This document shows positions 55,414-64,000 of a DNA stretch of 64,000 bases, piece after piece. The notes below the pieces were generated by a model. The model worked only from the letters and a program-made list of their open reading frames with translations. It had not been told where the DNA came from and did not search any database. Source of the stretch: Williamsia maris (GTDB lineage Bacteria; Actinomycetota; Actinomycetes; Mycobacteriales; Mycobacteriaceae); contig NZ_JAMTCJ010000004.1 in assembly GCF_024171815.1 (NCBI RefSeq), positions 310,001 to 374,000 of the forward strand, written 5' to 3'. The position numbers and the translations under genes are program-made. How positions within the stretch are numbered: position 1 is the first letter of the stretch; each line of letters opens with the position of its first letter.

Positions 55414-56523
55414 TCACAGGTCCAGGGTGCATCGTCCGGAGACGGTGCTGATGCAGGTCTGGATGCGGTCGCCCTCGCGGTGTTCGTCCCCGGAGCGCAG
55501 ATCGCGGACGTAGCCCTCGCTCAACGGCACGACGCACGTCTGGCAGATGCCCATCCGGCACCCGAACGGCATCTGGATGCCCAGCTTCTCGCCTGCCTCG
55601 AGCAGCGTTGTGGCGCCGTCGATCTCGGCGGTCTTGTCCGACCTCGCGAACGTCACGGTGCCGCCCTCACCGCCCTTGTCGGTGCGTGCGATCGCGAACC
55701 GCTCGATGTGCAGGGTGTCCTCGATGCCGTTCTCCGCCCACACGGCCTCGACCTGGTCGAGCATGGCCACCGGGCCGCACGCCCACGCCGACCGCTCCCG
55801 CCAGTCCGGGACGCGGTTGCCGAGATCGGCCATGTCGACCTTGCCCATCTCCCGGGTCAGCTGCAGATCGAGGACGTAGTGCTCGGAGGCGCTGAGTTCC
55901 TCGAGCTCGTCGAGGAAGATGACGTCGTCGCGGGTGGGGGCGGAGTGCACGTGGACGATGTCGGGGTGGTCGCCGCGGGCCCGCAACCCGCGCAGCATCG
56001 AGATGACCGGTGTGATGCCGCTGCCCGCGGTGATGAAGAGCAGCTTCTCCGGGGCCGGGTTCGGCAGGATGAAGTCGCCCTGTGGCGGTGCGAGTCGGAT
56101 GACGGCGCCCGGCTGCACGCCGTCGACGAGGTGTGTCGAGAGGAAACCGTCGGGGTTGGCCTTCACGGTCACGGTGATGCGCTTGCGTCGCGACTCGCCG
56201 ATCGAGGTCAGCGAATACGAGCGCCAGTGCCAGCGCCCCTCCACCTGCAACCCGATGCCGACGTACTGCCCCGGTGCGTAGGTGTGCGAGAAACCCCACC
56301 CGGTCTCTATCTCGACCGTGGCGGTGTCGGCGGTCTCCTTGGTGACCGACACGATGCGTCCACGCAGTTCCCGCGCCGACCACAGCGGGTTGAGCAGGTG
56401 CAGGTAGTCGTCGGGCAGCAGCGGGGTCGTCGCGCGTGCGATCAGTCCGCGCACGATGTTGATCTGCGGCCGTGCGGCCTCGACGTCTTTCGCGGGGTGT
56501 TTACTCCACTTGAGCAGGTCCAC
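55414..56523 (-). CDS. Ferredoxin-NADP reductase with C-terminal [2Fe-2S] domain
   Basis: A 369-residue electron-transfer protein. After ~50 helical residues come the FAD domain ([26 protein letters not shown]), the NAD(P)H domain ([30 protein letters not shown]) and the ferredoxin ([18 protein letters not shown] with a last Cys in TCIST). The architecture matches mycobacterial Rv3230c, partner of stearoyl-CoA desaturase DesA3. No desaturase is in the window. The GTG 56523 is preceded by GGAG; the longer frame would overlap the DUF475 gene. Confidence 0.88.
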
Positions 56524-56536
56524 TTCGGTCTCCGGA

Positions 56537-57685
56537 TCAGTCGGTCGCAGTGGCCATCTCGGACGGGGAGCCTCCCCCACCCGCCTTCGGCGTCGAACCG
56601 CCGTCGGAGCGCTCCTCGCGTCGGTTGGCGACGACGCTGCTGAGGAAGGCGGCGCCGATGAAGGCGACCCCGACCAGGCCGGTGATGATCTCGTTGATGT
56701 GGTACTCGATCGAGATGAACAGGATCACCGACAGCGCGCCGATGGCCCAGTGCGCTCCGTGCTCGAGGTAGCGGTAGTCCGACAGGGTGCCCTGTCGGAC
56801 GAGATAGACGGTGATCGAGCGGACGAACATCGCGCCGATGAAGCCGAGCCCCAGGGCGATGATGATCGGGTCGGCGGTGATCGCGAACGCGCCGATGACG
56901 CCGTCGAACGAGAACGACGCGTCGAGGACCTCGAGGTAGAGGAACAGGAAGAACGCGGCCTTGCCGGTGGCCTTGACCAGGGTGGACGGACCGCCTGCGG
57001 CGCGCGAGGCGACGTCGCGCTCGTGGTCCTCCTCGAGCTGCTCGGTGTGGAACAGCGATCCGAGTCCGTCGACCGCGATGTAGGTGATCATGCCCAGCAC
57101 GCCGGCGATCATGATCGTCGCGCGGTGCTGGTCGTCGGCGAGGAACTCCGCGACCAGGGTCAGGCTGAGGCCGGCGATGATGACCGACAGCTGGTCGAGC
57201 TTGCCGATGGTGGCCAGCGGCTTCTCGAACCACGAGAGCCACTTGGTCTCGCGCTCGGACAGGATGAAGTTGAGGAACAGCATGAACAGGAACATGCCGC
57301 CGAACGCCGCGATCTGCGGGTGGGCGTCGGTGAGGATCTGCTCGTAGGACTCCTGCCCGGATCCCTCGGCGGGCGGGTTGAGCGCGAGGTCGAAGGCCTG
57401 GACCGGGTTGAGGCCCGCGGTGACCCAGACGACGACCAGCGGGAACAGCAGACGCATGCCGAAGACGGCGATGATGATGCCGACGGTCAGGAACATCTTC
57501 TGCCAGAACTCGCTCATCTTCTCGAGCACGGTGGCGTTGATGACGGCGTTGTCGAAGGACAGCGACACCTCGAGGACGCCGAGGATGGCGCAGAGCGCGA
57601 CGGCTTCCCAGCTGCCGTAGACGAACGCCGCCACGAGTGCGGCGATGGTGACCAGGACCGAGATCCCGAAGGTACGAACAACCAC
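56537..57685 (-). CDS. DUF475/TerC-like integral membrane protein
   Basis: A 382-residue membrane protein with about nine helices. It belongs to the DUF475 family (a TerC relative in tellurium-resistance gene sets). The conserved blocks are [22 protein letters not shown] and the second copy [21 protein letters not shown], both with the buried Asp-Asn/Asp typical of TerC-like metal-ion sites. A Gly/Ser-rich tail ends the protein. It lies downstream of terD across a long hairpin. TerC/TerD are thought to form a membrane-associated metal-sensing complex. Confidence 0.87.
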
Positions 57686-57714
57686 TGATGTGGCCTTCCG
57701 CTAGAGGACGCAGT

Positions 57715-57755
57715 TCGGGAGTCGTGCCGCCGACATCGGCGGCCACGACTCCCGA
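57715..57755 (-). terminator. Very long hairpin between terD and the DUF475 gene
   Basis: 12-bp arms (TCGGGAGTCGTG at 57715-57726, CACGACTCCCGA at 57744-57755) continue, after a 1-nt bulge, into a second 6-bp stem (CCGCCG/CGGCGG) with an ACAT loop. It is 49 nt after the terD stop. There is no T-tract, so it may end, attenuate or protect the transcript rather than be a simple terminator. Confidence 0.6.
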
Positions 57756-57803
57756 GTGCTGGTCACGTGGATGGGCAGTCTGACGTTACTGCACGACGAG
57801 AGA

Positions 57804-58379
57804 TCAGACGTTGACGCCGAAGTCCCGTGCGATCCCGGCGAGTCCCGAGGCGTAGCCCTGACCCACCGCGCGGAACTTCCACTCCGCGCCGTTGCGGTAC
57901 AGCTCGCCGAACACCATGGCCGTCTCGGTGGACGCGTCCTCGGTGAGGTCGTAGCGGGCGAGTTCGGAGTTGTTCGACTGGTCGACGACGCGGATGAACG
58001 CGTTACGGACCTGACCGAACGACTGCGAGCGCGCGTCCGCGTCGTAGATCGAGACGGGGAAGACGATCGAGTCGACCTCCGGCGGCACGGCGGCGAGGTT
58101 CACCTTGATGACCTCGTCGTCGCCCTCGCCCTCACCGGTGGTGTTGTCACCGGTGTGTTCGATGGAGCCGTCCGGCGAGGTGAGGTTGTTGAAGAAGACG
58201 AAGTGCTTGTCCGACAACGCCTTCTTGTCGGTCCCGGTGCCGATCGCGCTGGCATCGAGGTCGAAGTCGGTGCCGGTGGTGGAACGGATGTCCCAGCCGA
58301 GGCCGACGGCCACCGCGGTGAGGTTCGGGGCCTCCTTCGTCAGAGAAACGTTTCCGCCCTTGCTCAAGCTGACGCCCAT
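57804..58379 (-). CDS. terD: TerD family tellurium/stress protein
   Basis: A 191-residue calcium-binding stress protein. It starts [18 protein letters not shown] and has [22 protein letters not shown], the hallmark [34 protein letters not shown], and [27 protein letters not shown], all standard TerD blocks. Full length and intact. TerD proteins are part of the Ter system that gives resistance to tellurite, phage and other stress. Its start has GAAAGGA. It is divergent from the metabolite operon and in the same direction as the DUF475 gene. Confidence 0.94.
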
Positions 58380-58534
58380 GTCAGTCCTTTCCGTTGTTGC
58401 CTGTCAGAGCTGGTCAACCCAGTCTGAATACATTGCAGCCACCGTACGTGAAGTCCGACATCCGGTGCGAGCGATCGAGGTGTCCGACCGGCTGCACCCG
58501 AACAACTGCCGCGACCCGTTCAAAGGTTCCCCAG

Positions 58535-58540
58535 TACGAT
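58535..58540 (+). promoter_or_regulatory. -10 box of leaderless promoter for the Ter-associated operon
   Basis: TACGAT, 7 nt before GTG 58548. No ribosome binding site precedes that GTG. The shared 168-bp intergenic region also carries the terD promoter. Confidence 0.55.
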
Positions 58541-58547
58541 TGCGCAG

Positions 58548-59771
58548 GTGGTCACTGGCTGGTTCGGACGCGGTCCCCGTTCGGGGTCACGCACCCCGAC
58601 CGGGCCCCTCGACGCTGCCCGTGAGGCCATGGTCCGCGACTTCCTGCAGCTCGACCAGCGGCTTTCCATCATCGCCGACGGTGTCGACGCCGCGACGGCC
58701 CTGGGCGGCGACCGAGCGTTGGCGCAGGCCTTCGAGCCGGTGCGCACCCGGGTCTACGTCAGCATCGACCGCTACCTGTCGCTGAGCGACTCCCCGGAGA
58801 CCCCCACGGCGACGCCGGCCAACCGTCAGGCCGAGTACGAGCAGTGTTCACGAGACATTCACGAGTCCATCGCGGCGCTCGACCGGTTCTACTCCGAACA
58901 CTCGACGGCGATAGAGGGCGCCCGGACCATGCGCGCCGCGGTCCCCGACCGCGCCGGTGCCGCCATGGGCGCGTCGGATGCGGCCATCGCGGCGGTCGAC
59001 GCCCTGCCGGCCGAGTTGTCGGTGTACAGCTCCGTGCGCTCGGCCCTCGACCACCTCGCACGTGTGCGGGCCGACTTCGACCGCGCACGCGACGCGGCCG
59101 ACGGCGTCGCCACGGCCGAACTCAACACCGCCACGGCCGAGCTGACCGCTGCGGCAGAGGAACTGACCGCCGCGGTCGGGGCCGCGCCCCATCGTTCGGT
59201 GGAGGTGGGTCGGGCACTGTCGTCGGTCCGGACGCGATGGTCGGCGGTTCGCACCCGCGCCGAACGTCTGCCCGAGACCTACTCGGCGCTGCTGCGGGAG
59301 TTCTCGGCCGCCTGCTCGGAGGATCTGATCGGGCACGACCGACGGGGCGACGAGGCCCTGCGGGCGGCCTCCGGACACATCGACTCCGCGGCACGCCTGC
59401 TGGGCGCCGACCCGGACCAGGCCGGCGCCGAGGTCGGTGCGGCCAGGTCGTCCCTCGCCGACGCGGAACACTTCATCGACGGCGTGACCGACCGCCTCAC
59501 CACGCTGCGTGACGTTCGGGCCGACCCGCAGGCGGTCGAGGGTAGAGTCCGATTCCAGATTCGCGATGCCCAGCTGCTCGCCGTCGACCGCGGTCTGGTG
59601 CCGCAGTGGGGAACGGTTCTCGACGCGGCTGCGGCCCGAGCGGATCGGGCCACCGCCGGTCTGACCGGCACCCACCCCGACTACTGGGGCTACGTGACCG
59701 AGATGAACGACATCGCCGCGTTCGTCGCGGACGTCGTCGCGAAGATGAAAGGTCAGGGCAGACGGAGATGA
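58548..59771 (+). CDS. Uncharacterised helical protein heading the Ter operon
   Basis: A 407-residue, almost wholly alpha-helical and Ala/Glu/Arg-rich protein, likely forming long coiled coils (for example ELNTATAELTAAAEELTAAVGAA at ~190-212 and EVGAARSSLADAEHFIDGVTDRL). The N-terminal 25 residues are a Gly/Arg-rich tail (FGRGPRSGSRTPTGP). No motif, signal peptide or membrane segment is seen. Its stop overlaps the ATG of the aldolase gene (ATGA). It is probably a scaffold for the enzymes or a Ter-specific structural component, but there is no direct evidence. Confidence 0.7.
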   Translation: MVTGWFGRGPRSGSRTPTGPLDAAREAMVRDFLQLDQRLSIIADGVDAATALGGDRALAQAFEPVRTRVYVSIDRYLSLSDSPETPTATPANRQAEYEQCSRDIHESIAALDRFYSEHSTAIEGARTMRAAVPDRAGAAMGASDAAIAAVDALPAELSVYSSVRSALDHLARVRADFDRARDAADGVATAELNTATAELTAAAEELTAAVGAAPHRSVEVGRALSSVRTRWSAVRTRAERLPETYSALLREFSAACSEDLIGHDRRGDEALRAASGHIDSAARLLGADPDQAGAEVGAARSSLADAEHFIDGVTDRLTTLRDVRADPQAVEGRVRFQIRDAQLLAVDRGLVPQWGTVLDAAAARADRATAGLTGTHPDYWGYVTEMNDIAAFVADVVAKMKGQGRRR

Positions 59772-60982
59772 CTTCCACCGCGACCACGGGTCGGACGGTG
59801 ACGCATTTCCCGATGCTCGACGAGAGCGAACTCGCTCGTCTCTTCCATCGACGGCCCCAGCCGATCCCGGTGGACTCCGACCGTGAACTCCTCGCGACCG
59901 CTCTGGGCGCCACGCTCTACATCCCGGCGATCCGCGACGGCCTGGTGTCGCTCGTCGAGCGCGCCGCCGCGGCGGGGTCGGTGTCGATCGTCATCGACCT
60001 CGAGGACGCCGTCCCCGACGACGCGGTCACCGCGGGGTTGCACGCGGTGGTGACCGCTCTCGACACCCTCGCCCGTCGCGGCGGTCCCCTGCTGTTCGTC
60101 CGCGTCCGCTCCGCCGACCAGATCGACGCGCTGATCGCCGAGATGACCACGGGCGCGGACATCCTCGCCGGTTTCGCGATCCCCAAGTTCGACTCGTCCT
60201 GCGGACGCGACTACCTGACCCGCATCGACCGCGCCTCCGACGTCGTCGGGCGTCGGCTCTACGCGATGCCGATCATCGAGACGCCCGATGTACTGCACCT
60301 GGAGACACGCGGCGACGAACTGCGCGCCATCGCCGAACTGCTGGCCGAGTTCCGCGAGAGTGTCCTAACTGTGCGGATCGGCGCCACCGACCTGTGCGGC
60401 ACCTTCGGCATCCGTCGCGATCCCGATCTGACGATCTACGACGTCCACCCCGTCGCCTCGGTGATCGCCGCGGTGGTCAACATCCTGGGTCGTCGCGACG
60501 GAACCGGGTTCGTGATCACCGGACCGGTATGGGAGTACTACAACGCGCACGAACGCATGTTCCGACCGCTGTTGCGCAACACGCCGTTCAAGGAGATCGA
60601 CGCCGTCCGGTTCCGCACGCATCTGGTCAGCCGCGACCTCGACGGACTGCTGCGGGAGCTGGTGCTCGACCGCGCGAACGGCCTACAGGGCAAGACCGTC
60701 ATCCACCCGACACACGTCAACGTGGTCCACTCGATGTGCACGGTCTCGCACGAGGAGTACGTCGACGCGCTCGCCGTCCTCGGGGTCGACGACGAACAGG
60801 CCGGTCCGGATGCGGCCGGCGACATCGGCGGCGTTCTCCCGTCGGAGTACCGCAACAAGATGAACGAACGTCGCCCGCACCGTGCCTGGGCCGAACGCAC
60901 GCTGACACGTGCCACCGTCTTCGGGGTCACCCGTCCCGACGTCGCGGTCATCGAATTGCTGACCGCGGTGGTCGATCGGTGA
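59768..60982 (+). CDS. HpcH/HpaI (CitE-like) aldolase family protein
   Basis: A 404-residue TIM-barrel aldolase/lyase-like enzyme of the type found in Ter-linked gene sets. Landmarks are LYIPAIRDGLVSLVERAAAAGSVSIVIDLEDAVPDDAV (the Glu-Asp metal segment), LFVRVRSADQI, AIPKFDSSCG, YAMPIIETPDVLH, RIGATDLCGTFGIRRDPDLTIYDV and GKTVIHPTHVNVVHSMCTVSHEEY. It is longer than typical CitE because of a C-terminal extension (RRPHRAWAERTLTRA). The substrate is unknown; it may make or break a C-C bond in a nucleoside-like molecule (inference). Overlaps both neighbours by 4 nt. Confidence 0.85.
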   Translation: MTSTATTGRTVTHFPMLDESELARLFHRRPQPIPVDSDRELLATALGATLYIPAIRDGLVSLVERAAAAGSVSIVIDLEDAVPDDAVTAGLHAVVTALDTLARRGGPLLFVRVRSADQIDALIAEMTTGADILAGFAIPKFDSSCGRDYLTRIDRASDVVGRRLYAMPIIETPDVLHLETRGDELRAIAELLAEFRESVLTVRIGATDLCGTFGIRRDPDLTIYDVHPVASVIAAVVNILGRRDGTGFVITGPVWEYYNAHERMFRPLLRNTPFKEIDAVRFRTHLVSRDLDGLLRELVLDRANGLQGKTVIHPTHVNVVHSMCTVSHEEYVDALAVLGVDDEQAGPDAAGDIGGVLPSEYRNKMNERRPHRAWAERTLTRATVFGVTRPDVAVIELLTAVVDR

Positions 60983-62274
60983 CGGCGTACCCGACATCCG
61001 CCGTGACGCCCTGGGCCGGAACGGAACTCGGACTGGTGGCGTCGCATGTCGACGGCGCCGCCGGATGGACCGTCGACGCACTGATCGAACCGGGTCTGCG
61101 ACGCAATCCCAAACGGGCGCACCTCTGGGTGTCGCGTGTCCTCGGCAAACACATCCCGGTGGCCCCGTCGACCATCGTCCGCGCCGGCTCCGACCTCGCC
61201 GATCTGGTGGATCTCCGCGGCGCCGACTCGGTCATCGTGTTCGGGTTCGCCGAGACGGCGACGGGGCTGGGCCACGTCGTCGCCCGACGGCTCGACGCGC
61301 CGGTGTACCTGCACTCCACCCGGCGTCCCGGCCCGGTCGGTGCCACGTGGGCGCGGTTCTCCGAGGGGCACTCCCACGCCACCGACCATCTGATCCAGCC
61401 CTCGTCGCCCGAACTGATGGAGACCGCGGACGTGCTGGTGCTCGTCGACGACGAGATCTCCACGGGCGCAACCGCCCTCGACGCGATTCGATCGCTGCAC
61501 CGACTCGTGCCGCAGCGTCGCTACATCGTGGCCGCACTGGTCGACATGCGATCGGAGGCCGATGTGGCGACCTGTGATGCGGCTGCGGCAGAGCTCTACA
61601 TCACCGTGGACTTCGTCAGCCTGGCGCGCGGTGTCGCAACCGTGCCCGCGGATCTCGTCGCACAGGTCGCGGCGCTGCCCGATCCGCAACCCGCCGCCGC
61701 CCACCACCGCGACACCGCCGGCGACGGCGAGGTGATCCGCGTCGACGTCCCGTGGTCGCACCATGTCCCCGACGGCGGCCGACACGGGTTCCTGTCCACC
61801 GACGAGCCTGCGTTCGCCGTGCTCGTCGACGCCGCGGCGGACGCGCTCGCGCCCCATCTCGATCCGCGGCGCCCCGTGGTCGTGATCGGGCACGAGGAGC
61901 TGATGTACCTGCCGCTGCGGATCGCGGCGGTGCTGGAGACCCAGGGCCGGATCGTGCTGTCGCAGACGACTACCCGCTCCCCCGCGCACGTGCGGAACGT
62001 GGACGGTTATCCGTTGCGCCACGGTTTCGCCTTCACGGCGCCGGAGGTGCGGACGTCGCCGGATGCCCCGCTGCGGTACCTCTACAACGCCGGTGAGGCA
62101 GACCCCCTCACCCAGCGGGTGCTCGTCGTGGACGCCGCCGCCGACACCGACGCCCTGGTCGCCGACGACTCGGTGATCGCCGCGCTGACCGGGTCCGGCC
62201 GCGACCTCGTGGTCCTGGTCGTCGGCGACACACGGTTCGGAGCGCTGGCCGCGGCCCGGGGTGTCGGACGATGA
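60979..62274 (+). CDS. Ter-associated phosphoribosyltransferase with a TRSP-type C-terminal domain
   Basis: A 431-residue protein. Residues ~30-220 are a type I PRTase: SVIVFGFAETATGLGHVVARRL, PVYLHSTRR and the PRPP loop VLVLVDDEISTGATALDAIRSLH (Asp-Asp-Glu then Ser-Thr-Gly). The C-terminal half (PVVVIGHEELMYLPLRIAAVLE, SQTTTRSPAHVRNVDGYPLRHGFAF) has the second conserved domain seen in Ter-linked PRTases. It is expected to join ribose-5-phosphate to a base or other acceptor. GTG start in a GTGA overlap with the aldolase stop. Confidence 0.85.
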   Translation: MTAYPTSAVTPWAGTELGLVASHVDGAAGWTVDALIEPGLRRNPKRAHLWVSRVLGKHIPVAPSTIVRAGSDLADLVDLRGADSVIVFGFAETATGLGHVVARRLDAPVYLHSTRRPGPVGATWARFSEGHSHATDHLIQPSSPELMETADVLVLVDDEISTGATALDAIRSLHRLVPQRRYIVAALVDMRSEADVATCDAAAAELYITVDFVSLARGVATVPADLVAQVAALPDPQPAAAHHRDTAGDGEVIRVDVPWSHHVPDGGRHGFLSTDEPAFAVLVDAAADALAPHLDPRRPVVVIGHEELMYLPLRIAAVLETQGRIVLSQTTTRSPAHVRNVDGYPLRHGFAFTAPEVRTSPDAPLRYLYNAGEADPLTQRVLVVDAAADTDALVADDSVIAALTGSGRDLVVLVVGDTRFGALAAARGVGR

Positions 62275-63386
62275 GCCTGCCGACCCCGCTGTACGGGCCC
62301 GACTTCGGCAGTTACGCCCCCGACGAGGTCGCATGGTTGCTGACCGACCTGTCCGATGTCGATCTCGAGGCCGACATCGAGATCCGCGAGCGCGCGATCC
62401 AGGCCGGTACGGCGCACTACGCCGAGTCGTTGCCCATCGAGTTCCAACCCGACGAGCGGTACCGGGCCCTGTTCGACACCGTGCTCGCCGAGACCGCTCA
62501 GACGCTGGCCGCGGCGGTCGCGACGGTCACCGAACTGGTGATCGCCGAACGCGGCGAGAACGTCGTGGTGGCGTCACTCGCCCGGGCGGGCACCCCGGTC
62601 GGCATCCTCATGCGTCGGTGGGCGCGGTACCGGCACGGTCTCGAGCTCCCGCACTACGCGGTGTCGATCGTCCGCGACCGGGGCATCGACCGGACCGCGA
62701 TCGACTACCTCGCCGCTCATCACGACCCGGCGTCGGTGGTGTTCGTCGACGGGTGGACCGGCAAGGGCGCCATCGCCCGCGAGCTGAGGGCCGCACTCGA
62801 CGAGACCGCGGCGGCCGGGGGGCCGCGGTGCAACCCCGACCTGGCCGTTCTCGCCGATCCCGGACACTGCGTCCGCACCTACGGCACCCGCGACGACTTC
62901 CTCATCGCCTCGGCCTGCCTGAACTCGACGGTCTCCGGACTGGTGTCGCGGACGGTGCTGAACGCAGATCTGATCGGGCGCAACGATTTCCATGGCGCGA
63001 AGTTCTACCGCGAACTCGCCGACTCGGACGTGTCGAACCGTCTGCTCGACGCGGTGTCCGGCGCCTTCCCCGACGTCGCGGGCGGGATCGACGATGCCGT
63101 CGCCGACCTCGTCGCCTCCGACCGGACACCGACATGGAGCGGGTGGCGCTCGGTGGAGGACATCCGGGCGCGGTACGGCATCACCACGGTCAACTTCGTC
63201 AAGCCCGGCGTCGGTGAGACGACGCGCGTGCTGTTGCGACGGGTCCCGTGGCGGATCCTGGTACGCGATCCCGATGCCCCCGAGCTGCACCACATCCACG
63301 CCCTCGCCGAGAGTCGGGGTGTGCCGGTGGAGGTCGTCGACGACCTCGCGTACTCGTGCATGGGGCTCATCAGGGAGCTCGAATGA
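62271..63386 (+). CDS. StiP-type PRTase-like protein
   Basis: A 371-residue protein of the family named after StiP of Ter gene sets. The central region has VVVASLARAGTPVGILMRRW, the PRPP-like loop SVVFVDGWTGKGAIARELR, DDFLIASACLNSTVSGLVSRTVLN and FVKPGVGETTRVLLRRVPWRILVRD. Some databases call the domain a cysteine protease; PRTase-like activity is the more plausible reading of the loop. The Cys residues (SACLNSTVSG and AYSCMG) are conserved in the family. ATGA overlap with the PRTase gene. Confidence 0.85.
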   Translation: MSLPTPLYGPDFGSYAPDEVAWLLTDLSDVDLEADIEIRERAIQAGTAHYAESLPIEFQPDERYRALFDTVLAETAQTLAAAVATVTELVIAERGENVVVASLARAGTPVGILMRRWARYRHGLELPHYAVSIVRDRGIDRTAIDYLAAHHDPASVVFVDGWTGKGAIARELRAALDETAAAGGPRCNPDLAVLADPGHCVRTYGTRDDFLIASACLNSTVSGLVSRTVLNADLIGRNDFHGAKFYRELADSDVSNRLLDAVSGAFPDVAGGIDDAVADLVASDRTPTWSGWRSVEDIRARYGITTVNFVKPGVGETTRVLLRRVPWRILVRDPDAPELHHIHALAESRGVPVEVVDDLAYSCMGLIRELE

Positions 63387-63403
63387 GCGAGAGGCAGCAG
63401 TGA
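63383..63403 (+). CDS. 6-codon bridging ORF between the StiP and HAD genes
   Basis: Encodes MSERQQ. Its ATG overlaps the StiP stop (ATGA) and its TGA overlaps the GTG of the HAD gene (GTGA). A GGGAG site precedes it. Confidence 0.45.
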   Translation: MSERQQ

Positions 63404-64000
63404 CCGCGCTCGTCGCCACCGATCTGGATCGGACCCTCATCTATTCGACGGCCGCCGCCGAACTCGGTGTCGAGGCCGACGACTACGCCTGCGCGACGAC
63501 GCTGCGGTGTGTCGAGATCTATCAGGGCCGACCGCAGTCGTTCATGTCCCACCGCGCGGTCGAGTTGCTCGACGAGCTGGACCACGTCGCGACGGTGGTC
63601 CCGGTGACCACTCGCAGCGTCGAACAGTTCCGCCGCGTCGAGCTGCCGTTCACACCGGACCCGTCCCGTCGCCGGTTCGCGGTGGCGGCCAACGGCGGCG
63701 AGATCCTCGTCGACGGTGTGCCCGACCCCGTGTGGCGAGCCGAGGTCGAGCGGCGGCTGGCCGCGGCCTGCACACCCGTCTCGGACGTCCACGACCACCT
63801 CTCCGCCGACGCCGATCCCGGCTGGCTGCGGTCGCTGCGCGTCGCCGACGGTCTGTTCTGTTACGCCGTCGTCGAACTCGCCACCATGCCGACCGACCTG
63901 GTCGACCGGTGGCGGGAGTGGGCCCGACCCCGCGGATGGAACGTGTCCCGACAGGGCCGCAAGATCTATGTGATGCCCGACCCGGTGACCAAGTCCGCGG
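63400..64000 (+). CDS. HAD-superfamily phosphatase, 3' truncated by the window
   Basis: At least 200 residues of a HAD phosphohydrolase. The nucleophile motif is ATDLDRTLIYS (Asp-Leu-Asp, first Asp is the nucleophile). TVVPVTTRSVEQF is motif II (Thr), and FAVAANGGEILVDG follows the Cof-type pattern. GRKIYVMPDPVTK near the right edge is typical of the C-terminal Mg site approach. It is likely to dephosphorylate the product of the PRTase step. GTG start, coupled through the mini-ORF and the internal GAGAGG. Confidence 0.8.
   Translation, partial: MTALVATDLDRTLIYSTAAAELGVEADDYACATTLRCVEIYQGRPQSFMSHRAVELLDELDHVATVVPVTTRSVEQFRRVELPFTPDPSRRRFAVAANGGEILVDGVPDPVWRAEVERRLAAACTPVSDVHDHLSADADPGWLRSLRVADGLFCYAVVELATMPTDLVDRWREWARPRGWNVSRQGRKIYVMPDPVTKSA

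Follow-up and report, generated by a model that had tools for sequence, protein, structure and literature searches.

Bases 310001-374000 of contig 4 of the Williamsia maris genome (4.93 Mb in five contigs) make up the 64,000-nucleotide stretch analysed here, referred to below as the window. Its right-hand end is best explained as a Ter stress system on the chromosome, one of those that make a metabolite. An earlier note, made from the letters of the window and their open reading frames, had described TerD and a DUF475/TerC-like gene as divergent from a tight operon for a helical protein, a lyase, a phosphoribosyltransferase (PRTase), StiP and a HAD phosphatase, and all of these genes were found, in that order. 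The most informative part of the locus is the gene for the helical soluble protein (HEL), the operon's first, at 58548-59771 on the + strand, to which the note had given no role. In related genomes HEL and the Ter protein TelA are close to being strict alternatives, and this alternation is the unexpected and testable point of the locus. The joint explanation that we favour, with reasonable though far from full confidence, is that of a metabolite-making Ter system in which HEL stands in for TelA, the two being unrelated in sequence and replacing one another, and to which no ATP-grasp protein belongs.

The alternation was read at two levels. One was a set of neighbourhoods around 62 lyase genes (the window's own, 54 from the host's order and 7 from its genus), each at most 20 kb long and many of them ending early at a contig end; TelA is absent from all 28 of the stretches with HEL, and HEL from all 19 that carry a gene of the TelA cluster. 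The other was a sample of 200 genomes from the order, of which 27 have HEL, 42 have TelA and none has both. When a module genome is taken to be one with a strong lyase match or with StiP, the sample holds 57 of them, 25 with HEL, 28 with TelA, none with both and four with neither; these four are 57-88% complete, whereas among the module genomes that reach 90% completeness, 40 in number, every one has just one of the two genes (HEL 22, TelA 18). The 27 HEL genomes still lack TelA, and the 42 TelA genomes HEL, when these two groups are searched again at E ≤ 0.001. No TelA (PF05816) was found in the window genome at the same threshold, and HEL itself has no PF05816 match. In the module genomes of the order, HEL lies within 20 kb of StiP (in G128, of the lyase) in 23 of 25 cases and TelA in 22 of 28. 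The Fisher value for HEL against TelA, 2.7e-12, ignores kinship and is not to be leaned on. A maximum-likelihood tree was drawn of 52 StiP proteins from the 62 loci; L059 and L080 were dropped from the 54 StiP rows, and L122 from the 28 HEL rows, because their merged match envelopes were far too long. On this tree the state changes between HEL and TelA six times, where shuffles give 17.5, and the six changes are forced by well-supported branches. All six independent pairs are opposite for HEL and TelA (p 0.031). No description of the alternation was found in the literature searched, which did not include the founding 2012 Ter paper, where HEL may be described.

HEL has 407 residues, a GTG start, an isoelectric point of 5.3 and a composition rich in alanine and arginine, with no hydrophobic or membrane segment (the highest 19-residue Kyte-Doolittle mean is 1.22); that it is helical is predicted from composition and from coiled-coil-like matches. 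It has no Pfam match at E ≤ 0.05, and a search of Pfam and NCBIfam with the window protein and 26 relatives gave no curated family and scattered weak matches of the coiled-coil kind; HEL is a family without a Pfam or NCBIfam name. Weak matches to chemotaxis receptors, EzrA, SMC and Rad50 in PDB, Pfam and NCBIfam were judged typical of helical or coiled-coil composition and set aside. The idea of HEL as a distant TelA was likewise dropped at an hhalign probability of 0.3%, obtained with a shallow TelA profile, as was that of HEL as the small companion of TelA (cluster c1), with which it has no profile similarity; by profile comparison HEL and TelA appear not to be homologous. The companion, which TelA loci often hold, begins M-x-W-F-R-R (L044 17269-17751 and relatives), and the one member scanned has no Pfam match. 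Many HEL proteins begin with a similar W-F/W-x-R stretch, which could be a membrane-surface tag common to the two. In one locus (L143 9616-10771, in G033) HEL is present as two overlapping frames, a broken gene or an assembly error. The HEL gene is divergent from TerD, at the head of the enzyme operon. HEL stays near TerD even in two genomes that lack the lyase: in G108 the two are adjacent and divergent, and in G073 about 2 kb separates HEL from TerD and DUF475. The primary partner of HEL may thus be one of these, TerD or DUF475, and not the enzymes.

To our knowledge, neither the Ter metabolite nor the Ter mechanism has been established. The literature connects Ter systems with resistance to tellurite, colicin and phages, and their pathway was already predicted by Anantharaman in 2012, as cited in PMC8115787 and PMC7824862. 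The latter, a comparative study of jumbo phages, describes TelA and TerF as forming sub-membrane structures, with PRTases and HAD enzymes making a signal, TerB/TerD sensing a ligand and TerC acting as the membrane response. At the present locus a small nucleoside-like molecule would be the joint product of the lyase, the HAD phosphatase and the PRTase_2/StiP pair, the TerD proteins would sense that molecule or metal ions, DUF475 would act in the membrane, and HEL would be a sub-membrane scaffold or effector, the part supplied by TelA in other Ter loci. From the alternation we infer a replacement of TelA, presumably the sub-membrane part, by HEL, and such a placement would fit most of the distribution, exceptions aside.

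The exceptions, and some features of the tests themselves, weigh against this placement. Among 396 genomes sampled from the phylum, those outside the order that carry StiP include 11 from a Streptomyces-like genus (g63); HEL lies within 9 kb of StiP in all 11, and four of them hold, besides this HEL at the Ter locus, an unlinked TelA, one about 3 Mb off and three on another contig, with Ter genes absent from the 20 kb read around it. Within the order sample TelA occurs in 14 genomes without the module and HEL in two, HEL lies away from Ter genes in G004 and G033, and the TelA of G051 is 1.06 Mb from StiP. A collection of 80 named loci, the best 80 of at least 571 relatives, has HEL in 73, TelA in one and neither in six, and is not an even sample because it is best-scoring and mostly Streptomyces; in three of the six (Gordonia asplenii, Rhodococcus marinonascens and Streptomyces beigongshangae) the flanks are full and neither gene lies within 10 kb, and in the remaining three the flanks are cut by contig ends. 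Six switches yield a p of no better than 0.031, and a pair control with HEL against ATP-grasp was patternless and of low power, a weak control because few pairs differ in ATP-grasp (a mean of 1.5 of the 6). The HEL searches scored only the best 9 or best 27 first-look candidates per genome, and the shallowness of the TelA profile bears on the hhalign comparison as well.

The alternation could come from lineage history alone, with the cluster existing in two transferable editions and HEL doing a job unrelated to that of TelA. The states are indeed clustered on the StiP tree, with 6 changes against 17.5, gene order differs between the HEL and TelA editions, and TelA exists outside the module, both in the 14 order genomes and as the four unlinked copies of g63. 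Set against this are the alternation of the two inside a single genus, g9 (which includes a Nakamurella record; among the matches listed, its 17 genomes comprise 10 with HEL, 5 with TelA, none with both and 2 with neither), the opposite states of six of six independent pairs, and the fact that no module genome of the sample at least 90% complete is without both; lineage history as the whole explanation seems to us possible, if doubtful.

Two other rivals concern the enzymes, whose motifs are well kept and are taken to have the roles usual for these folds. In the lyase E79, D80, K140, E171, D208 and GK..IHP.H, at CitE-type positions, are identical in at least 98% of 62 rows, as are D157, D158, E159, G163 and T165 of the PRPP-loop-like LVLVDDEISTGATA of PRTase_2 in at least 98% of 61 rows (PRPP being phosphoribosyl pyrophosphate) and D8, D10, T70, T71, K198, G221, D222 and D226 of the HAD protein in at least 98% of 56; the SLARAG, FVDGWTGKGAI and Cys216 motifs of StiP and its PELOTA motif are retained in the homologues and the window protein. 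A profile search with PF15610 (PRTase_3) gave no match, and neither did its control. PRTase_2 and StiP share a single open frame in 22 of the 62 loci (a count that excludes two frames matching both, because a contig end cuts one of them and the second match of the other is only weak), and therefore the split pair of the window, with its ATGA overlap, probably acts together. Taken with the conserved KPGVGETTRVLLRR and the 123-bit PELOTA_1 match on StiP, the shared frame could mean that the pair acts on PELOTA-bound RNA and that the enzymes modify RNA with no free metabolite. The sole match of StiP to PDB sequences at E values up to 1, ribosomal eL8, points the same way but at 0.38 is not significant, the pair is not known to have an RNA target, and the HAD protein and lyase would suit a small-molecule route better; we regard RNA modification as very improbable. 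StiP might also be a cysteine protease outside the metabolite route, as its Pfam and NCBI names have it and as the invariance of Cys216 in SACLNST across 52 aligned rows would allow. Yet FVDGWTGKGAI and SLARAG resemble, by eye, the PRPP and pyrophosphate loops of PRTases, the open frame shared with PRTase_2 in those 22 loci argues for the PRTase side, and a phage homologue of StiP is annotated as a phosphoribosyl transferase, all of which make a protease unlikely.

We accordingly keep to a metabolite-making Ter system with HEL as the stand-in for TelA. The wider proposition, that HEL founds a new family which has been swapped with the unrelated TelA about six times in the Ter systems of actinobacteria, that a Ter locus always requires a single helical sub-membrane partner, of one kind or the other, in order to act on the metabolite signal, and that the ATP-grasp is dispensable, could go either way in our estimation.

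On the last of these points the earlier note had placed an ATP-grasp ligase past the right edge of the window, and there it was mistaken. The sequence past 64000, where it had suggested looking for further Ter genes, does hold one, for a tandem TerD-TerD protein of 415 amino acids after the HAD gene (64307-65554 in window numbering), followed by unrelated genes, a short DUF7576-like one on the opposite strand and then RbpA. A search of the genome with PF15632 (ATPgrasp_Ter) gave a best score of 26.2 bits, under the cut-off of 29.1, and no match in the neighbourhood. With ATP-grasp matches of at least 90 bits counted as Ter type (there is a gap between 94.8 and 68.1 bits), 28 of the 200 order genomes have one, 20 of them among the 55 with the lyase; it is treated as accessory because only 10 of the 57 module genomes of the order have such a match within 20 kb of StiP, and the step looks accessory in actinobacteria. 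None of the seven module genomes that the order sample holds from the host family has an ATP-grasp at E ≤ 1e-7, a search to which the other seven Williamsia genomes did not belong, and a four-sequence profile found none in the flanks of the 80 named loci. As a part of the joint explanation, the placing of this step outside the present version of the Ter system is on balance probable.

The two genes of the leftward group, both on the - strand, encode a DUF475/TerC-like integral membrane protein of 382 amino acids (56537-57685; PF04332 445 bits, PF03741 58 bits) and TerD, of 191 (57804-58379; PF02342 283 bits). A divergent intergenic region of 168 bases (58380-58547) separates TerD from HEL, after which the + strand carries the CitE/HpcH-type C-C bond lyase (59768-60982, 404 amino acids; PF15617 364 bits, cut-off 28.4), the PRTase_2 + TRSP phosphoribosyltransferase-type protein (60979-62274, 431 amino acids; PF15609 210 bits, PF12500 102 bits), the StiP + PELOTA_1 protein (62271-63386, 371 amino acids; PF11202 344 bits, PF15608 123 bits) and the 285-amino-acid HAD-type phosphatase (63400-64257, running beyond the window end at 64000). 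The Pfam matches of PRTase_2, TRSP, StiP and PELOTA_1 all exceed their cut-offs. The HAD protein has no Pfam match at E ≤ 0.1 and an NCBIfam match, HAD-SF-IIB-MPGP at 1.7e-6, that falls below the cut-off; its assignment is by motifs, the residues recognised as HAD motifs I-IV being conserved. The three ATGA or GTGA overlaps reported earlier are there, each of 4 bases, ATGA at 59768 (HEL/lyase), GTGA at 60979 (lyase/PRTase_2) and ATGA at 62271 (PRTase_2/StiP), and StiP and HAD are spaced by 13 bases. A TACGAT at 58535-58540 lies 7 bases 5' of the HEL GTG, where no clear ribosome-binding site was seen by eye, and TAC(G/C)AT is retained in the 7 aligned Williamsia loci (of 8 in the genus); it may be the promoter of a leaderless transcript. 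A common operator motif, sought in 36 TerD-HEL intergenic regions, gave nothing convincing, the top 10-mers resembling the TerD start itself. Downstream of DUF475 on the same strand is a Fer2/FAD/NAD oxidoreductase gene (55414-56580, - strand) whose longest frame overlaps DUF475 by 44 bases; a relative of it (cluster c8) adjoins DUF475 in 6 of 8 Williamsia loci, and it may be co-transcribed with terD-DUF475.

The module is widely conserved. With lyases above 300 bits counted as Ter type (the next lower score is 59 bits), a strong PF15617 lyase is present in 55 of the 200 order genomes and all 8 Williamsia genomes, and another 118 of the 200 have weak PF15617 matches only, taken as other aldolases. 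StiP is likewise found in 55, and the two occur together in 53. Of the 62 lyase neighbourhoods, 60 include TerD, 45 DUF475, 60 PRTase_2, 57 StiP, 56 HAD and 28 HEL, and the gene order of the window was found again in named Nocardia, Rhodococcus, Rhodococcoides and Williamsia loci. The comparison of neighbourhoods across actinobacteria that the earlier note had called for thus bears out the link to terD; because these genes recur around the lyase, and the module stays linked to terD in relatives, the association is not one of chance. The earlier note's suggestion that the genes fit the predicted Ter pathway stands in so far as the module's families are present at high score; as a prediction it is not new, since the enzyme set is that of the published Ter "nucleoside-like metabolite" module, and neither is the operon. 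In a distant genus of the phylum, three genomes (G332, G487, G549) have only a partial, weaker StiP (94.5-105.9 bits) and match neither HEL nor TelA.

StiP is also common on plasmids, with 2,567 of 72,556 plasmid records, mostly enterobacterial; HEL is in 5, all actinobacterial. On each of the four HEL plasmids that were read, HEL is followed by the lyase, PRTase, StiP, a gene in the HAD position and TerD or VWA genes, so that the HEL-to-HAD run is present on 4 of 4, and the gene order of the window recurs on 2 of them. On pGD25-3 (L246, 23.6 kb) a run of twelve genes, starting with TerB and ending with the last TerD, forms a cassette that takes up about half of the plasmid; its neighbours are an abortive-infection family gene, a recombinase and a MobF relaxase, and typing nonetheless gave non-mobilizable. 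Among 23 of the 24 features of this plasmid there is no ATP-grasp or TelA annotation. A StiP relative with 41% identity over 96% of the query is found in MT836648.1 (Bacteriophage sp., 15,378 bases). PADLOC models run against 8 proteins of the locus gave no catalogued anti-phage system, the weak matches being to PRTases only (0.009). On contig 3 of the same genome, L009 9819-16397 holds a TerD-AIM24 fusion, then a DUF559 protein and a HerA/AAA ATPase of 1084 amino acids; this is possibly a second Ter-linked or defence-like group, and nearby frames look ribosomal by eye.

Having HEL and TelA as near-strict alternatives assigns TelA a role that can be tested, as the one helical partner that is required, and marks out the core of Ter systems. 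HEL as a stand-in for TelA would offer a concrete way into the working of these systems, which are common on plasmids, and the compact pGD25-3 cassette is a convenient guide for finding the Ter product.

The system most directly comparable is the Ter metabolite module of Anantharaman, Iyer and Aravind (2012), as outlined in PMC8115787 and PMC7824862; the likeness lies in PRTases, HAD, TerD and TerC-type genes in one locus, and in lyase and StiP families with Pfam names that suggest a Ter connection, and the window differs in having no ATP-grasp, HEL in the place that TelA takes in other loci of the order, and DUF475, a TerC relative, as the membrane protein. The enterobacterial IncHI2-type ter locus of E. 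coli pCFSAN061771_02 shares the PRTase, StiP, HpcH/HpaI lyase, TerD/TerC and the divergent groups; unlike the window, it has ATP-grasp, terZ, TerB, terW, TerY-C and VWA genes, and enterobacterial StiP is about 35% identical to that of the window. The TelA-type Ter loci from other families of the order (L044, L046) have the same enzymes and TerD, and in many cases DUF475, with TelA and its small c1 companion where the window has HEL. The loci of Nocardia, Rhodococcus and Williamsia and the plasmid locus (L166, L169, L170, pGD25-3) share with the window DUF475, TerD, HEL, lyase, PRTase_2, StiP, HAD and TerD, and some of them add TerB, DUF4236 or more TerD genes.

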